64,000 bases of DNA, from positions 1-64,000 of the forward strand of contig DASWDU010000022.1 of NCBI GenBank assembly GCA_036395115.1. The letters run 5' to 3'. The position numbers and the translations under genes were made by a program. Under the pieces are notes generated by a model, which did not search any database, was not told the DNA's origin, and worked only from the letters and a program-made list of their open reading frames with translations. This DNA is from Thermoplasmata archaeon (GTDB lineage: Archaea > Thermoplasmatota > Thermoplasmata > RBG-16-68-12). Of the stretch, positions 10,272-30,918 are shown piece after piece (the first letter of the stretch is position 1; the number at the start of each line of letters is the position of its first letter).

Positions 10272-10856
10272 GTGCACGGGAAATCTTCCGGAGCTCGAGA
10301 ATCAGAGCGGCGGATCTTGTACATTGTCCAAAACCTGGTGGTGACTTTCAGATTGGCTAGGATGTTTCCTCTTGAGGAGATCGTGAAGTCGAGAGCGTTG
10401 GGGACAAGCGTCCGGAAAATCGGAAGGCCATGGCTAGGGCTTCGAGTCGGCCCCCAAAACAGGTACGTGGCCATTTATCCCAACGGGAAAATCGTAGTTA
10501 CAGGATGCCGGACTATCGAGGAGACGAGGGAGGTATCAAAAGAGATCGCGGGAATGTTAGCTTCCCACATTGAATCCAAGCAACCCGTGTCTGAACCTGT
10601 CATTCAAAACATTGTTGCGACGAGCGATCTAGGCCGAAAATTAGATCTCGTGATGGTCGCTAGGGCGCTCGCAGGGCAAGATTTTGAATATGAACCGGAA
10701 CAGTTTCCAGGACTCGTGCTGCGCCTGAGAAACCCTCGCTCTGTGGTCATCTTCTTCCGGACCGGCAATCTTGTTCTTACAGGAACCAAGAGTTTCGGCG
10801 AGTTAGAAAAGGCAGTCGACGCAGCCGTCAGATTGGTGATAGACGCCAGCCAATGA
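10272..10856 (+). CDS. divergent TATA-binding protein paralogue
   Basis: 194 residues from GTG 10272; TTG at 10317 is an alternative that starts nearer the fold. The second half is a clear TBP repeat: VIQNIVATSDLGRKLDL, then YEPEQFPGLVLRLR and VVIFFRTGNLVLTG, with aromatic residues F145 and F161/F162. The first half is a degenerate repeat (VQNLVVTF, RPWLGLRV, YVAIYPNGKIVVTG) with W54 and Y69 where the chromosomal TBP (30370-30918) has DNA-intercalating phenylalanines. It follows hsdS by 38 bp on the same strand. TBP recruits TFB and RNA polymerase to TATA boxes; an accessory TBP may redirect transcription or control the restriction cluster. Coding is certain; the role is inference. Confidence 0.85.
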   Translation: MHGKSSGARESERRILYIVQNLVVTFRLARMFPLEEIVKSRALGTSVRKIGRPWLGLRVGPQNRYVAIYPNGKIVVTGCRTIEETREVSKEIAGMLASHIESKQPVSEPVIQNIVATSDLGRKLDLVMVARALAGQDFEYEPEQFPGLVLRLRNPRSVVIFFRTGNLVLTGTKSFGELEKAVDAAVRLVIDASQ

Positions 10857-18017: not shown

Positions 18018-19274
18018 TCAAGGTGACAGAGTGTCGGCGTGCGCGGTTCGGACCTTGGCAACTCGCTCAGTAAGCGCCTCATTCAATTCTCCGATGGGAA
18101 AGGCCTTCAAGATTCGGTCGGCGAATGGTGGTGTATACGGGTACGCGTGGATCCAAATCCGGAATCCAGCAAGATTGTCTAGCGCGAACCTCTCGAACAA
18201 ATCCCTAGTCTTCCATTTCTTGATTTCTTCGATTACGTCTTCTGGCAGGGCATCGAAGTCCGTAAGCATGTCATATGAAAACCGGAGCAGGGACACCAGA
18301 TTGTCCTTGCCCTTGCGACCGGAGACGATTGAATCGTATCGGTAATGGACGTCTGGGATTCCAAGAGCCATTGATGCCAGTCGACGAATTATGCAACCAT
18401 AACACGTCCCGTCGTGAGACCTAAATTGCTGGGAGATGCAGGAGTGGGTAAGTTTGAGCCAACCCCTATCTTTGATCAACGCCATGGCTTCGGCCTTTGT
18501 ATGACCGGCGAGCGGCGTTTCTAGGCGGATTCTATTCTGAGTGAGCTTCTTTGCAATTGATCTGATTACCTCGAGCACCAAGGGGTGGGAAGTCATGGTG
18601 GTTGTGTCGAAAGGACCGAATCGGGGCTGATGCATGGTCGGGCCACATTCGCCCATTACGAAGGAACGTCTTCTCAAGCTCTCCGCGACAGCCAGGGCGG
18701 CCATTCCGTACAGAAAGCCGCGGGTTTGCGAATACCCGGCGCGACGGAGAGGGGGCGCGTATAAGGTGAGCAGCGGAACCGAAATTTGCTCGAGAACTGA
18801 CTTGTAGAGCGATTGGACTATGTGAATTAGCCCACCCAGGTCGCTATGCGCGACGAAGAGGGCGATAGGGCGTCTGCCCTCTGTGATGCGCTTGAGTAGG
18901 GTTGCCAGACTATCGATCCCGCCTGAGAAGAGGCTAACCTCGGTTTTCTGAGTTAGGCTGACCTCATATTTTGACGTACGAACCCGAGTATCTGCGGCGA
19001 CGAATCTGACACTAATCTCGACGGGCCATAGATATTCGAACAGGTGTTCCAGGTCAGTTGTGATGTCATTGTCTCTAAATCGGTCCAAGTTGATCATTGA
19101 GACGGGGATGACAGATTCTATCTTGCGGTAGCCCGCCTTGACTTGATTCTCAACTGCGATGGCGGATTCCCCGATTCGGTAGATATCGCGTCCCGAAACG
19201 AACGCATCGAGCCTGGCATAATCGCTTTCGCGGCTCGAGACCCTAACTGGTGTGACGACCCTCCTCCGGTTCAA
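18018..19274 (-). CDS. QueC-like PP-loop ATPase (QatC/Cap9-type), defence-associated
   Basis: 418 residues. The PP-loop motif SGGIDS (117-122) and a downstream 'HSC...HDGTCYGCIIRR' (C279, C291, C294) match the QueC/7-cyano-7-deazaguanine synthase superfamily. The long N-terminal region and 'GPTMHQPRFG...TSHPLV...GHTKAEAM' resemble QatC and CBASS Cap9 rather than housekeeping QueC (about 220-240 residues). No other preQ0-pathway gene is nearby. It is the last gene of the rel operon and overlaps the gene before it by 32 bases. The TTG start at 19274 is uncertain because a GGAGGAG site lies just inside it. Family-level inference is an ATP-dependent deazaguanine or conjugation reaction. Confidence 0.75.
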   Translation of the reverse strand: MNRRRVVTPVRVSSRESDYARLDAFVSGRDIYRIGESAIAVENQVKAGYRKIESVIPVSMINLDRFRDNDITTDLEHLFEYLWPVEISVRFVAADTRVRTSKYEVSLTQKTEVSLFSGGIDSLATLLKRITEGRRPIALFVAHSDLGGLIHIVQSLYKSVLEQISVPLLTLYAPPLRRAGYSQTRGFLYGMAALAVAESLRRRSFVMGECGPTMHQPRFGPFDTTTMTSHPLVLEVIRSIAKKLTQNRIRLETPLAGHTKAEAMALIKDRGWLKLTHSCISQQFRSHDGTCYGCIIRRLASMALGIPDVHYRYDSIVSGRKGKDNLVSLLRFSYDMLTDFDALPEDVIEEIKKWKTRDLFERFALDNLAGFRIWIHAYPYTPPFADRILKAFPIGELNEALTERVAKVRTAHADTLSP

Positions 19275-19587
19275 TATCGTCCGCTTCCTGTATCTGCCGT
19301 CGCGCAGCGCTGATACCGTTCTTGATTGCAGACTCGATTACGTTTTCCGGGACTTGGCTCCAATCGTCAGTAGAATAGCCCGCGGTGCGGAGCCTATCCG
19401 CCACAAGCGGTGCCGCCGCTTTGGCGACCTGACGGTTCCGCCTTTCCACTTCGCGTTGGACATCTTTGGGGAGGGTAAGGTAGCCCGTAGAGATATCTTC
19501 CGACCTGACGCCAGCGGTAAGCATCTTCTCGATCAAAGAGGCAAGGAATTCCAGAAACGCGGCATCCGCCGGTGGGGGTCGAATCAT
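19243..19587 (-). CDS. small helical protein of the rel/QueC-like operon (a)
   Basis: 114 residues, ATG at 19587 overlapping the upstream stop by four bases (ATGA). Predicted mostly alpha-helical and charged (AAFLEFLASLIEKMLTAG; LPKDVQREVERRNRQVAKAA). I recognise no family. The tight coupling on both sides suggests a dedicated subunit made in stoichiometry with the QueC-like enzyme. It could be an adaptor, an antitoxin for the alarmone-synthetase-like protein, or a structural partner; sequence alone does not decide. Confidence 0.62.
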   Translation of the reverse strand: MIRPPPADAAFLEFLASLIEKMLTAGVRSEDISTGYLTLPKDVQREVERRNRQVAKAAAPLVADRLRTAGYSTDDWSQVPENVIESAIKNGISAARRQIQEADDIEPEEGRHTS

Positions 19588-19955
19588 TTTCCCCTCTTAC
19601 GGCGACGAAGTGCCCGTGCCAGCGCTTCAGTGACAATTTTGTCTTCAACAAGCGAAGTCTGGATCCCTCTCTTGTCGCGCTCGACGGCCCAAGCCTTGTT
19701 CGCAGCTCGTTTTCTTTGTTCGTAGGTCTTCGGTTCTTCCTTCCTCGCTTCTTCAAGAACCTTCGAGTACGCCCTGACGGCTTCGCTGAGGAGGCGGACG
19801 GGTCTCTCGCTGTCGACAACGAGCTGTGCACTATCTGAGGCAATTCGATCGGCACGCCCTTCTTTGACTGCTCGAGTAACCCGCCTCTTGTCCAGCTTTG
19901 TCTTCTTGGACTTTCCAAAAACGTCCTCTAGAGAGTATGACCGTCGACCGCCCAT
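19584..19955 (-). CDS. small basic protein with Met-Gly-Gly N terminus, rel/QueC-like operon (b)
   Basis: 123 residues; its ATG follows the rel stop codon immediately (TAA-ATG). It starts MGGRRSYSLEDVFGKSKKTK and ends in a Lys/Arg-rich tail, with a central helix 'RPVRLLSEAVRAYSKVLEEA'. No family recognised. The exposed Gly expected after Met removal is notable because QueC-like enzymes of defence systems have, as I recall it, been reported to modify N-terminal glycines of partner proteins. This is a hypothesis only. The protein is very basic and might also bind nucleic acid or ribosomes. Confidence 0.62.
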   Translation of the reverse strand: MGGRRSYSLEDVFGKSKKTKLDKRRVTRAVKEGRADRIASDSAQLVVDSERPVRLLSEAVRAYSKVLEEARKEEPKTYEQRKRAANKAWAVERDKRGIQTSLVEDKIVTEALARALRRRKRGK

Positions 19956-21032
19956 TTAGCGGACCTCCCCTGGGCCTGGAGAAAGTCGATCTCGCTTCAG
20001 AGCAGCAACTCGATCACAGAAAACACGGATTGTCGGAATGTCCCACTCCGGGTGGCTCTGCCTCACAAAGTCGTAGTAGGCCTGGGGACTACGATACTTC
20101 AGGATGTCGCGGACCTTGCCAATCCCAGACCGACGCACATAGTTTAGCTCGAGCCTGAGAGCCTCCACCGCCTCCGCGGGAAACTCACCGATGGCGCGAT
20201 TAAGAGCCGATAGTGTCGTGATGCCAACAGCCCGTGCCTCTTCGGTGATGTCGCGAAGGACCTCGCCAGTAATTGAACTCCCGTGCTGATTCCGAAAAGC
20301 TTTTTTCGATAGGAAAACCCTGAGGGCTATTGGTTCAATCTCGATTTCCAAATCGCCGCGATCGATGCGATTTCCGATCTCCGACTCCAGTCGGCGCCCA
20401 TAGTCTCTCAGGTCTTCGAGCTCATTGTCGGCGATTTCTAGGAGCCCGGAAAGAGCGTAGAAGCGGCGCTCGATTGTCCTGGGGGGCTCCGTCGGCGGTT
20501 TATATATTAGCCCGTGGGCTGTTGCCGCCCACGCATGTTGAAGAATCGTCCGAATCTGGATTTCGCATTTGAGCGTTGCGATTCCTGGGGCTTCTGCCGG
20601 AACCAATTGACCGGGTAACGTAACAACGAAGTGCGCAGAGTTATATCCGAAGACCTTTGGGTCGCTGGCCTTGTTGAAATCCACTGAATTTTTTTCGTCA
20701 ATGATGAATTTCCTCCTTACGATGTCGCTCACGGTCTCAATATCGGATCGGAAGTGGACCATTGCCCTGACACCTGCGAGGTCGGTGACTTCCGTCAGCG
20801 GATCTTTGTAGTCCTTTTCTTCCCGGAGGACCTTCTCTTGAAAACTCTCAACAGTCTTTACGCGGTATGTGCACCCGTCGATTGTGAGTCCGATTGCTGC
20901 GATTTCGCTGACTAGACAGTCTCTCACCACAACTGCAAGTCGCTCGTACGAAGGGCGGAGAACCCTGTATTGTTCCGCGATTTCGTCAACCGATAGCTCT
21001 TCTGGCTTAGAACCTGGTGTCCCGTTCGCCAA
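19956..21032 (-). CDS. RelA/SpoT-domain alarmone-synthetase-like protein
   Basis: 358 residues from TTG 21032, preceded by GGGAGGG and a TATA box. The nucleotidyl-pyrophosphotransferase core is clear: R57-x-K59...S63...K67 (YRVKTVESFQEK), D84-L-A-G-V-R89, 'FGYNSAHFVV' with Y130 at the guanine-stacking position, and 'EIQIRTILQHAWAATAHGLIYK'. There is no HD hydrolase domain. About 180 residues follow the core, longer than in ordinary small alarmone synthetases; their function is unknown. Family members make (p)ppGpp or ppApp, or pyrophosphorylate tRNA as toxins. As first gene of the operon it is the likely effector. Archaea mostly lack ppGpp signalling, which makes this gene unusual. Confidence 0.82.
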   Translation of the reverse strand: MANGTPGSKPEELSVDEIAEQYRVLRPSYERLAVVVRDCLVSEIAAIGLTIDGCTYRVKTVESFQEKVLREEKDYKDPLTEVTDLAGVRAMVHFRSDIETVSDIVRRKFIIDEKNSVDFNKASDPKVFGYNSAHFVVTLPGQLVPAEAPGIATLKCEIQIRTILQHAWAATAHGLIYKPPTEPPRTIERRFYALSGLLEIADNELEDLRDYGRRLESEIGNRIDRGDLEIEIEPIALRVFLSKKAFRNQHGSSITGEVLRDITEEARAVGITTLSALNRAIGEFPAEAVEALRLELNYVRRSGIGKVRDILKYRSPQAYYDFVRQSHPEWDIPTIRVFCDRVAALKRDRLSPGPGEVR

Positions 21033-21060
21033 AGACCCTCCCTTTGTGAATCGCCCGGGG

Positions 21061-21068
21061 GTTAAATC
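21061..21068 (-). promoter_or_regulatory. TATA box of the rel/QueC-like operon
   Basis: On the minus strand this reads GATTTAAC and predicts a start near 21038, six bases before the TTG at 21032. Confidence 0.5.
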
Positions 21069-21227
21069 ATCCTACCGCAAGAAGTCACGACCTCACCGGT
21101 ATAGCATGCATCCATGGGCCTCCCGCGCATATCGCGTCGCCGCAACGTCGTCGGACCGGAACAAAATGGCGCGATTGCCGCAAGCATCACTCTCTACGGC
21201 AGAAGTCGGAGTCGCTAGCTAGGTCTA

Positions 21228-21257: not shown

Positions 21258-21935
21258 ATGCCGCGAAAGTCCACGGTTACCATCGTCAGGCAATCCTTGC
21301 AGGAGCTTGTTGATCAGTTCTTCTCCTCGCCCCATGCCCTCAGAACCGAACAGAGTTTGCATTGCCAGCTCTATTACCTCCTCCTAAAACACGGGCTCAA
21401 TCACTCTCATCAGTCCGGCGCTGGCTTCGATGTCTCACAGGTTCAGAAGGAGTACCCGCCACGGAATGCCGACAAACGTGGTCGGCGTGGTCGATTCGAC
21501 CTTGTAGTGTTCGATGCGGCCGACATTCGCTCGATAGCTCGTTGGGACTACTCTGATGAATTGAAGATGCCCATTCCGCCCACCGTCGCTATTGAGCTGA
21601 AGCTGAATGGTGGCCTTCGATGGAGTCCTGACAGGGCCAACCTTCCGGACATTCAAAAGGAGCTCAAGAGGCTCCAGCGCGAGGAGAATGGGGTCAGACA
21701 CCCGTTCGTCCTTTACCTCTACCGGATCGCAAACCTCAAAGATGCCAGAGGCCAAGTTGAATCGTTCAAAAGGCTGGAAGAACTCTTCGTCGCAGCCTCA
21801 ATGGAATATCGGAAGGTGTCTGCATGGCTAGCCGGGACCGAGTTTGATCCAGCGCAAGGATTCAAACCGCTGACGTCCATCGAAGTCAAGGTAGAGAAGG
21901 GCAAAGTTGCCCGAAGAACCCACGTCCGAAACTGA
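21258..21935 (+). CDS. putative PD-(D/E)XK nuclease-like protein
   Basis: 225 residues, start fixed by the leaderless promoter. 'RRGRFDLVVFDA' followed by 'PTVAIELKLNGG' gives the D...E-x-K pattern of restriction-endonuclease-like folds (D in FDLVV, E-L-K in AIELKL). An N-terminal helical region (LRTEQSLHCQLYYLLLKHGL) precedes it. Such proteins are frequent in defence islands as effectors or orphan nucleases. It is divergent from the rel/QueC-like operon and might be part of the same system, but no overlap or shared operator proves that. I cannot name a closer family. Confidence 0.6.
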   Translation: MPRKSTVTIVRQSLQELVDQFFSSPHALRTEQSLHCQLYYLLLKHGLNHSHQSGAGFDVSQVQKEYPPRNADKRGRRGRFDLVVFDAADIRSIARWDYSDELKMPIPPTVAIELKLNGGLRWSPDRANLPDIQKELKRLQREENGVRHPFVLYLYRIANLKDARGQVESFKRLEELFVAASMEYRKVSAWLAGTEFDPAQGFKPLTSIEVKVEKGKVARRTHVRN

Positions 21936-30369: not shown

Positions 30370-30918
30370 ATGGCCAAGTTCCGGATCGAGAACGTCGTCG
30401 CGTCGACCTCCCTCGGGCACGAGCTCGACCTCAAGGCGATCGCCCTCGCCCTGGGCGGCTCCGAGTACGAGCCGGAGCAGTTCCCCGGGCTCATCTACCG
30501 CATCAAGGAACCGAAGACCGCCATCCTGCTGTTCCGCAGCGGGAAGGTCGTCTGCACCGGCGCGAAGAGCCTCGAGAACGTCAAGATGGCGATCGACCTG
30601 GTCGCGAAGCAGATCGAGGCCGCGGGCATCCCGATCAAGAAGAACCCGGAGATCGAGGTCCAGAACATCGTCGCCACGTCGGACCTCGGCGCCCAGATCG
30701 ACCTGAACGCGGTCGCGATCACCTTGGGGCTCGGTGCCGTGGAGTACGAGCCGGAGCAGTTCCCCGGCCTCGTCTACCGGATCGACGAGCCCAAGGTCGT
30801 CCTGCTCATGTTCGGCAGCGGCAAGGTCGTGTGCACCGGCGCGCGCAAGCCTGCGGACGTCGAGAAGGCCGTCGACAAGATCACGGCCGAGCTCAAGGCG
30901 AACGGGCTTCTGCACTGA
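30370..30918 (+). CDS. tbp: TATA-box-binding protein (TBP)
   Basis: 182 residues, the normal archaeal length, made of two direct repeats. The first is 'RIENVVASTSLGHELDL...YEPEQFPGLIYRIKEP...ILLFRSGKVVCTG'; the second is 'VQNIVATSDLGAQIDL...YEPEQFPGLVYRIDEP...LLMFGSGKVVCTG'. Intercalating phenylalanines are present in both. It nucleates the pre-initiation complex with TFB. This copy sits among core genes (ABC-F and eL33) and is taken as the housekeeping TBP, in contrast with the divergent copy at 10272-10856. Confidence 0.96.
   Translation: MAKFRIENVVASTSLGHELDLKAIALALGGSEYEPEQFPGLIYRIKEPKTAILLFRSGKVVCTGAKSLENVKMAIDLVAKQIEAAGIPIKKNPEIEVQNIVATSDLGAQIDLNAVAITLGLGAVEYEPEQFPGLVYRIDEPKVVLLMFGSGKVVCTGARKPADVEKAVDKITAELKANGLLH

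Follow-up and report, generated by a model that had tools for sequence, protein, structure and literature searches.

The window analysed here comprises 64,000 nucleotides of a contig from a Thermoplasmata archaeon (GCA_036395115.1, DASWDU010000022.1, positions 1 to 64,000). Four tightly packed ORFs were found on its minus strand, in the order RelA/SpoT-like gene, ORF B (123 aa), ORF C (114 aa) and QueC-like gene, with junctions of 0, -4 and -32 bases between successive ORFs. The coordinates and overlaps reported for this unit in a preliminary description were confirmed. The features considered are the following:

21036..21042, minus strand: Shine-Dalgarno-like GGGAGGG ahead of the RelA-like start (from the sequence)
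19956..21032, minus strand: RelA/SpoT-domain protein (P0001), 358 aa, TTG start (Pfam, PADLOC, AF2, alignment)
19964..19970, minus strand: Shine-Dalgarno-like GGGGAGG ahead of ORF B, within the 3' end of the RelA-like gene (from the sequence)
19584..19955, minus strand: ORF B, 123 aa, MGGRRSYSL..., pI 10.6 (Met-Gly start, cassette position)
19243..19587, minus strand: ORF C, 114 aa, helical, pI 5.0 (HMM of archaeal equivalents)
18018..19274, minus strand: QatC-family QueC-like PP-loop ATPase (P0004), 418 aa, TTG start (NCBIfam, PADLOC, PDB, motifs, tree)
30376-30897 of the contig: canonical TATA-binding protein

A further Shine-Dalgarno-like sequence, GAGGGG, precedes the start of ORF C. With its ribosome site inside the RelA-like gene, ORF B is probably translated from the RelA-like transcript. 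The TATA box earlier proposed ahead of the operon is not convincing: the nearest element (TTTAA, 21062-21066) ends 29 bases before the RelA-like TTG, and transcription from it would begin at or within the Shine-Dalgarno sequence; the alternative is a TATA at 21100-21103. A divergent ORF of 225 aa (21258-21935, plus strand) begins about 225 bases away from the operon; it has no Pfam hit, and its stretch FDLVVF...VAIELK resembles the core of PD-(D/E)xK nucleases.

Over its first ~28 kb the window is GC-poor (54-60%, against 62-70% elsewhere). Between 379 and 14568 we found a UPF0175-type gene, a tyrosine integrase, a type I restriction-modification system (hsdR/M/S), a DpnI-family enzyme and an AIPR protein. 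From this gene content, the GC-poor region is a defence island of the archaeal chromosome, which bears out the initial view of the four genes as a defence locus. The canonical TATA-binding protein indicates an archaeal genome, of which the contig is a true part and not a bacterial contaminant. A second, divergent TATA-binding protein is encoded between hsdS and the DpnI-family gene (10326-10838, plus strand), and could possibly be an island-specific transcription factor.

P0001 has a Pfam RelA_SpoT match (6.7e-20) with no hydrolase domain. It also matches PDC-S33, a PADLOC candidate for RelA-domain defence by a single gene (2.6e-17; positions 68-177 of a profile of 349). It is composed of a small-alarmone-synthetase core (approximately residues 15-222) followed by an extra helical C-terminal region. 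The AF2 model (pLDDT 80) has SAS1/RelQ and SAS2/RelP as best PDB matches, then CapRel. The catalytic-core residues R57, K59, S63, D84, R89, Y130, H134, E157, Q159 and R161 are invariant in an alignment of 21 sequences. Sequence and model together indicate that P0001 is an intact enzyme of the small-alarmone-synthetase type.

Alarmone-synthetase genes are rare in the archaeal phylum of the host, with a match in 8 of 243 genomes. Members of the P0001 family are normally solo cargo genes, being found in 36 viral contigs, in Bacteroides and Streptomyces plasmids, in an inovirus and in four archaea of the same class. Examples are the RelA-type genes carried by a Vibrio inovirus (L010:6571-7581) and by a Bacteroides phage-plasmid (L006:5995-7068).

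The QueC assignment of P0004, like the RelA/SpoT assignment of P0001, proved to be real, with a weak match to Pfam QueC (PF06508, 5.4e-7). QatC is nevertheless ranked first both by NCBIfam (3.5e-19; 69 bits, below the equivalog cut-off of 280) and by PADLOC (6.9e-14), and the profile of the P0004 clade matches the solved QatC structure PDB 9vlk (3.6e-16). The motifs used for scoring were taken from PMC13279940 and PMC13329287. The ATP-binding loop SGGxDS is present as SGGIDS (residues 117-122), along with the ECG (ExG glutamate) and RR motifs, and the P(x)4TK and RxR-type adenosine contact residues P254, T259, K260 and R185 are invariant. In QatC, two invariant threonines before HP replace the Tyr/Asp of QueC and Cap9 (PMC13279940); both are found in P0004, where T226-M-T228-S-H230-P231 aligns with TRTTHP. 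The zinc site retains three of four cysteines (C279, C291, C294), with Asp at the fourth position. In a tree of 55 QatC proteins, P0004 forms a clade with the proteins of L245 and L246 (100/100), on a long branch. The AF2 model of P0004, built on an alignment of 3 sequences, had a pLDDT of 39 and was unusable for fold search. From these motifs and matches, P0004 is a divergent QatC homologue.

QueC is required in archaea for archaeosine, and with the PF06508 match this raises the question of whether P0004 could serve metabolism, as a spare synthase for preQ0 or archaeosine. Elsewhere in the genome there are two full-length QueC genes, one of them beside QueD, together with an archaeosine tRNA-guanine transglycosylase (TGT); P0004 is therefore not needed for preQ0, in agreement with the original suggestion that it is not a preQ0 synthase. 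A third weak QueC-family match, on contig C39, was rejected as GMP synthase. The canonical substrate motif is replaced in P0004 by the QatC-type threonines, P0004 was found in none of 99 further genomes, from relatives as distant as class level, and QatC fails to complement a queC mutant (PMC13329287). A metabolic role is thus very improbable.

The QueC-like enzymes of Qat and type IV CBASS have as their target a partner protein whose N-terminal glycine (MGTS, MGGS) is essential; for Cap9 the reaction has been proven, and for QatC it is a proposal (PMC13279940, PMC11996544). QatBC suffices for defence, with Gly2 of QatB and QatC catalysis both required (PMC13279940). ORF B begins with Met-Gly-Gly, after GGGGAGG; a second-residue glycine occurs in ~10% of long ORFs and Gly-Gly in 0.5%.

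From genomes and viral contigs, 143 QatC-like loci were listed. In 122 of them the ORF immediately upstream of QatC starts with Met-Gly (62 MGT[S/A] and 60 MGH), with GTG and TTG start codons included. Among the matches listed, the split order and overlaps seen here are repeated in three other archaea of the same class (G478, L245; G481, L246; G362, L218) and in haloarchaeal plasmids (L012, L014, L015), where a Met-Gly protein of 145-153 aa is followed by a helical protein of ~100-137 aa and by QatC, all overlapping. There are at least 7 archaeal cassettes in all, three of which are near-identical haloarchaeal plasmid copies. Neither QatA nor QatD was found in the six split cassettes L012, L014, L015, L245, L246 and L218. 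In G362 the QatC gene is interrupted by a transposase-like insert (L218:5077-8104). In two of the three haloarchaeal plasmids QatC is directly followed by a gene resembling a restriction endonuclease, and annotated as such in L015 (L015:6336-7523, L012:7306-8559); it is possible that this gene is an alternative accessory effector.

ORF B occupies the position of the MGT... proteins in the archaeal split cassettes. We were not able to find any significant sequence match between ORF B and QatB or its cassette equivalents beyond the Met-Gly start, so its assignment to a split QatB is based on position and on Met-Gly. ORF C matches, weakly, an HMM built on its counterparts in four archaeal cassettes, with a score equalled by 1 of 1902 shuffles and 2 of 2267 control pieces. 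The bacterial QatB HMM gives 6.5 bits against ORF B and ORF C together (equalled by 2 of 1000 shuffles and 22 of 1228 control pieces), which is only suggestive. Direct searches of the plasmids with ORF B and ORF C returned no match. The two haloarchaeal proteins, when joined, align to QatB from residue 1 (77%, 2e-5), which indicates that they are a split QatB. ORF B is most likely the N-terminal half of a split QatB, bearing the N-terminal glycine acceptor, and ORF C most likely the C-terminal half. The proposal that the gene set was unrelated to known systems was not upheld, since P0004 is homologous to QatC and the pair of small genes resembles a split QatB. Of the four genes, three make up a recurrent archaeal split-QatB/QatC variant, free of QatA and QatD and apparently undescribed. 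We consider the Qat part of this reading well supported and hold it with high confidence.

A second class of QatBC, with 60 loci (L025, L026, L028-L030, L033, L035, L038, L041, L048, L056, L057 and most of L105-L166), has a protein of ~262 aa (MGHxRLGxLPxxxxW) and a QatC-like protein of ~600-700 aa. Prophage and viral contigs often carry these loci, which have no adjoining QatA or QatD. The one MGH partner tested has no Pfam or PADLOC family match, and the profile of the partner aligns with QatB at full length (hhalign 91%, 1e-6). By these alignments, the class looks like an unannotated two-gene Qat variant. Scans of the viral contigs with P0004 and with P0001 singly returned no confirmed relative, and a scan with the archaeal QatC clade returned no match.

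Compared with qatABCD, the locus shares a QatC-family enzyme, an upstream partner with N-terminal glycine, overlapping genes and a defence-island setting, and published work has QatBC as the functional core of Qat (PMC13279940). It differs in having QatB in two ORFs, an MGG instead of an MGTS start, a RelA-type gene in first position and one zinc cysteine missing, and Pfam found neither the QatA KAP NTPase nor the QatD TatD among the neighbouring genes. With these absences and a score below the equivalog cut-off, the locus does not belong under qatABCD, and it probably works like QatBC. With the six split cassettes it has in common the three-gene order and the overlaps, and with L245 and L246 also the QatC clade, whereas these cassettes have an MGT start and no RelA-like gene, and two haloarchaeal ones carry the restriction-endonuclease-like gene. 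Type IV CBASS (Cap9/Cap10, with an MGGS CD-NTase) also combines a QueC-family ligase, a protein with a Gly-Gly N-terminus and a nucleotide-transferring enzyme in one operon. However, neither CD-NTase nor Cap10 is present here, RelA_SpoT being the sole nucleotidyltransferase-type match at the locus; the active site is of the QatC type and not of the Cap9 type, P0004 has 418 aa against the short Cap9, and the synthetase itself has no Met-Gly start. From these features, the locus should not be filed as type IV CBASS either. PDC-S33, RelQ, RelP and CapRel share with P0001 the synthetase fold and catalytic residues, and it belongs to the same family as the solo phage-borne homologues, but none of those genes, whether solo, housekeeping or toxin-antitoxin, is joined to QatBC.

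A toxin-antitoxin pair would be another way of reading the first two genes, with the RelA-like protein as a toxSAS, ORF B as its antitoxin, and ORF C and QatC as bystanders or regulators. ORF B is indeed small and basic and adjoins the RelA-like gene, and toxSAS toxins pair with adjacent small antitoxins, some being antiphage (PMC11782079, PMC9712102). In Pfam, ORF B has no match to an antitoxin family. Yet ORF B occupies the slot of the Met-Gly partner of every archaeal cassette, most of the RelA homologues looked at stand without a small partner gene, and P0001 is nearer to RelQ/SAS1 than to CapRel in both sequence and fold, all of which makes this pairing improbable.

We suggest that in the QatBC-type cassette the QatC-family enzyme would use ATP to activate (adenylate) a 7-deazaguanine-type or related carboxylate and attach it to Gly2 of ORF B, exposed after removal of Met. 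ORF C would be the helical docking part, through which ORF B would be docked in an ORF B-ORF C complex, and the modified ORF B would arm the defence complex. That the QueC-like protein probably modifies a partner protein, as first proposed, is supported. The RelA-type synthetase may be an accessory effector, causing growth arrest on infection by pyrophosphate transfer to a nucleotide or tRNA, and would fill the place of QatA/QatD (KAP NTPase, TatD) in bacterial operons. The whole reading, an archaeal QatBC-type antiviral cassette with a split QatB and a co-transcribed RelA-type accessory effector, has in our judgement an even chance of being right.

The weakest step is the proposed link in function between the RelA-like protein and QatBC, which we place about level with a chance neighbourhood; it is from the operon layout alone that we infer a role as effector of the QatC module. 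The RelA-like gene and ORF B are on the same strand with a 0-base junction, and the ribosome site of ORF B lies within the RelA-like gene, which points to co-expression. The same transcript could instead carry two independent defence systems, a solo PDC-S33-type RelA gene having come by chance to lie upstream of a split-QatB/QatC cassette. Full-length homologues of P0001 are solo in prophages, plasmids, an inovirus and the four same-class archaea, and defence genes cluster in the island. In the neighbourhoods covered, up to ~7 kb on each side and in some cases ending with the contig, no RelA-like gene was found beside QatC in 143 other listed QatC loci or in the 6 other archaeal split loci, nor QatC beside the RelA-like gene in ~40 other RelA loci. 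A RelA-like match beside the viral QatC locus L135 was false, being a DUF669 protein. We found no paper joining RelA/SpoT and Qat in a literature search that covered part of the literature. With one known locus of the combination, chance and selection cannot be distinguished, and we regard independence as nearly as likely as coupling, its probability lying somewhat short of even. A more specific form of the coupled reading, in which the QatC-type enzyme and its glycine-tailed partner would control the RelA-type alarmone/pyrophosphate synthetase as a Qat effector, by analogy with the licensing of a nucleotidyltransferase by Cap9, is offered tentatively, and we lean against it.

The preliminary description had treated the four genes as one system. 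ORF B, ORF C and QatC are neighbours elsewhere, and the RelA-like gene is not among them; the claim is thereby reduced to a recurrent, apparently undescribed split-QatB/QatC archaeal variant and a plausible link to a RelA-type gene that has so far been seen only at the present locus. How a modified QatB stops phage, and which reaction QatC performs, are questions named in PMC13279940. Natural cassettes of split QatB and QatC with no QatA or QatD support QatBC as the core, and suggest that the glycine tail, in ORF B, and the helical docking part, in ORF C, can be two distinct polypeptides. With the glycine tail on a separate short chain, the substrate would be tractable for mass spectrometry. 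If the RelA-type synthetase is truly wired to QatBC, Qat would gain an effector of known chemistry, and two immune strategies not seen together would be joined.
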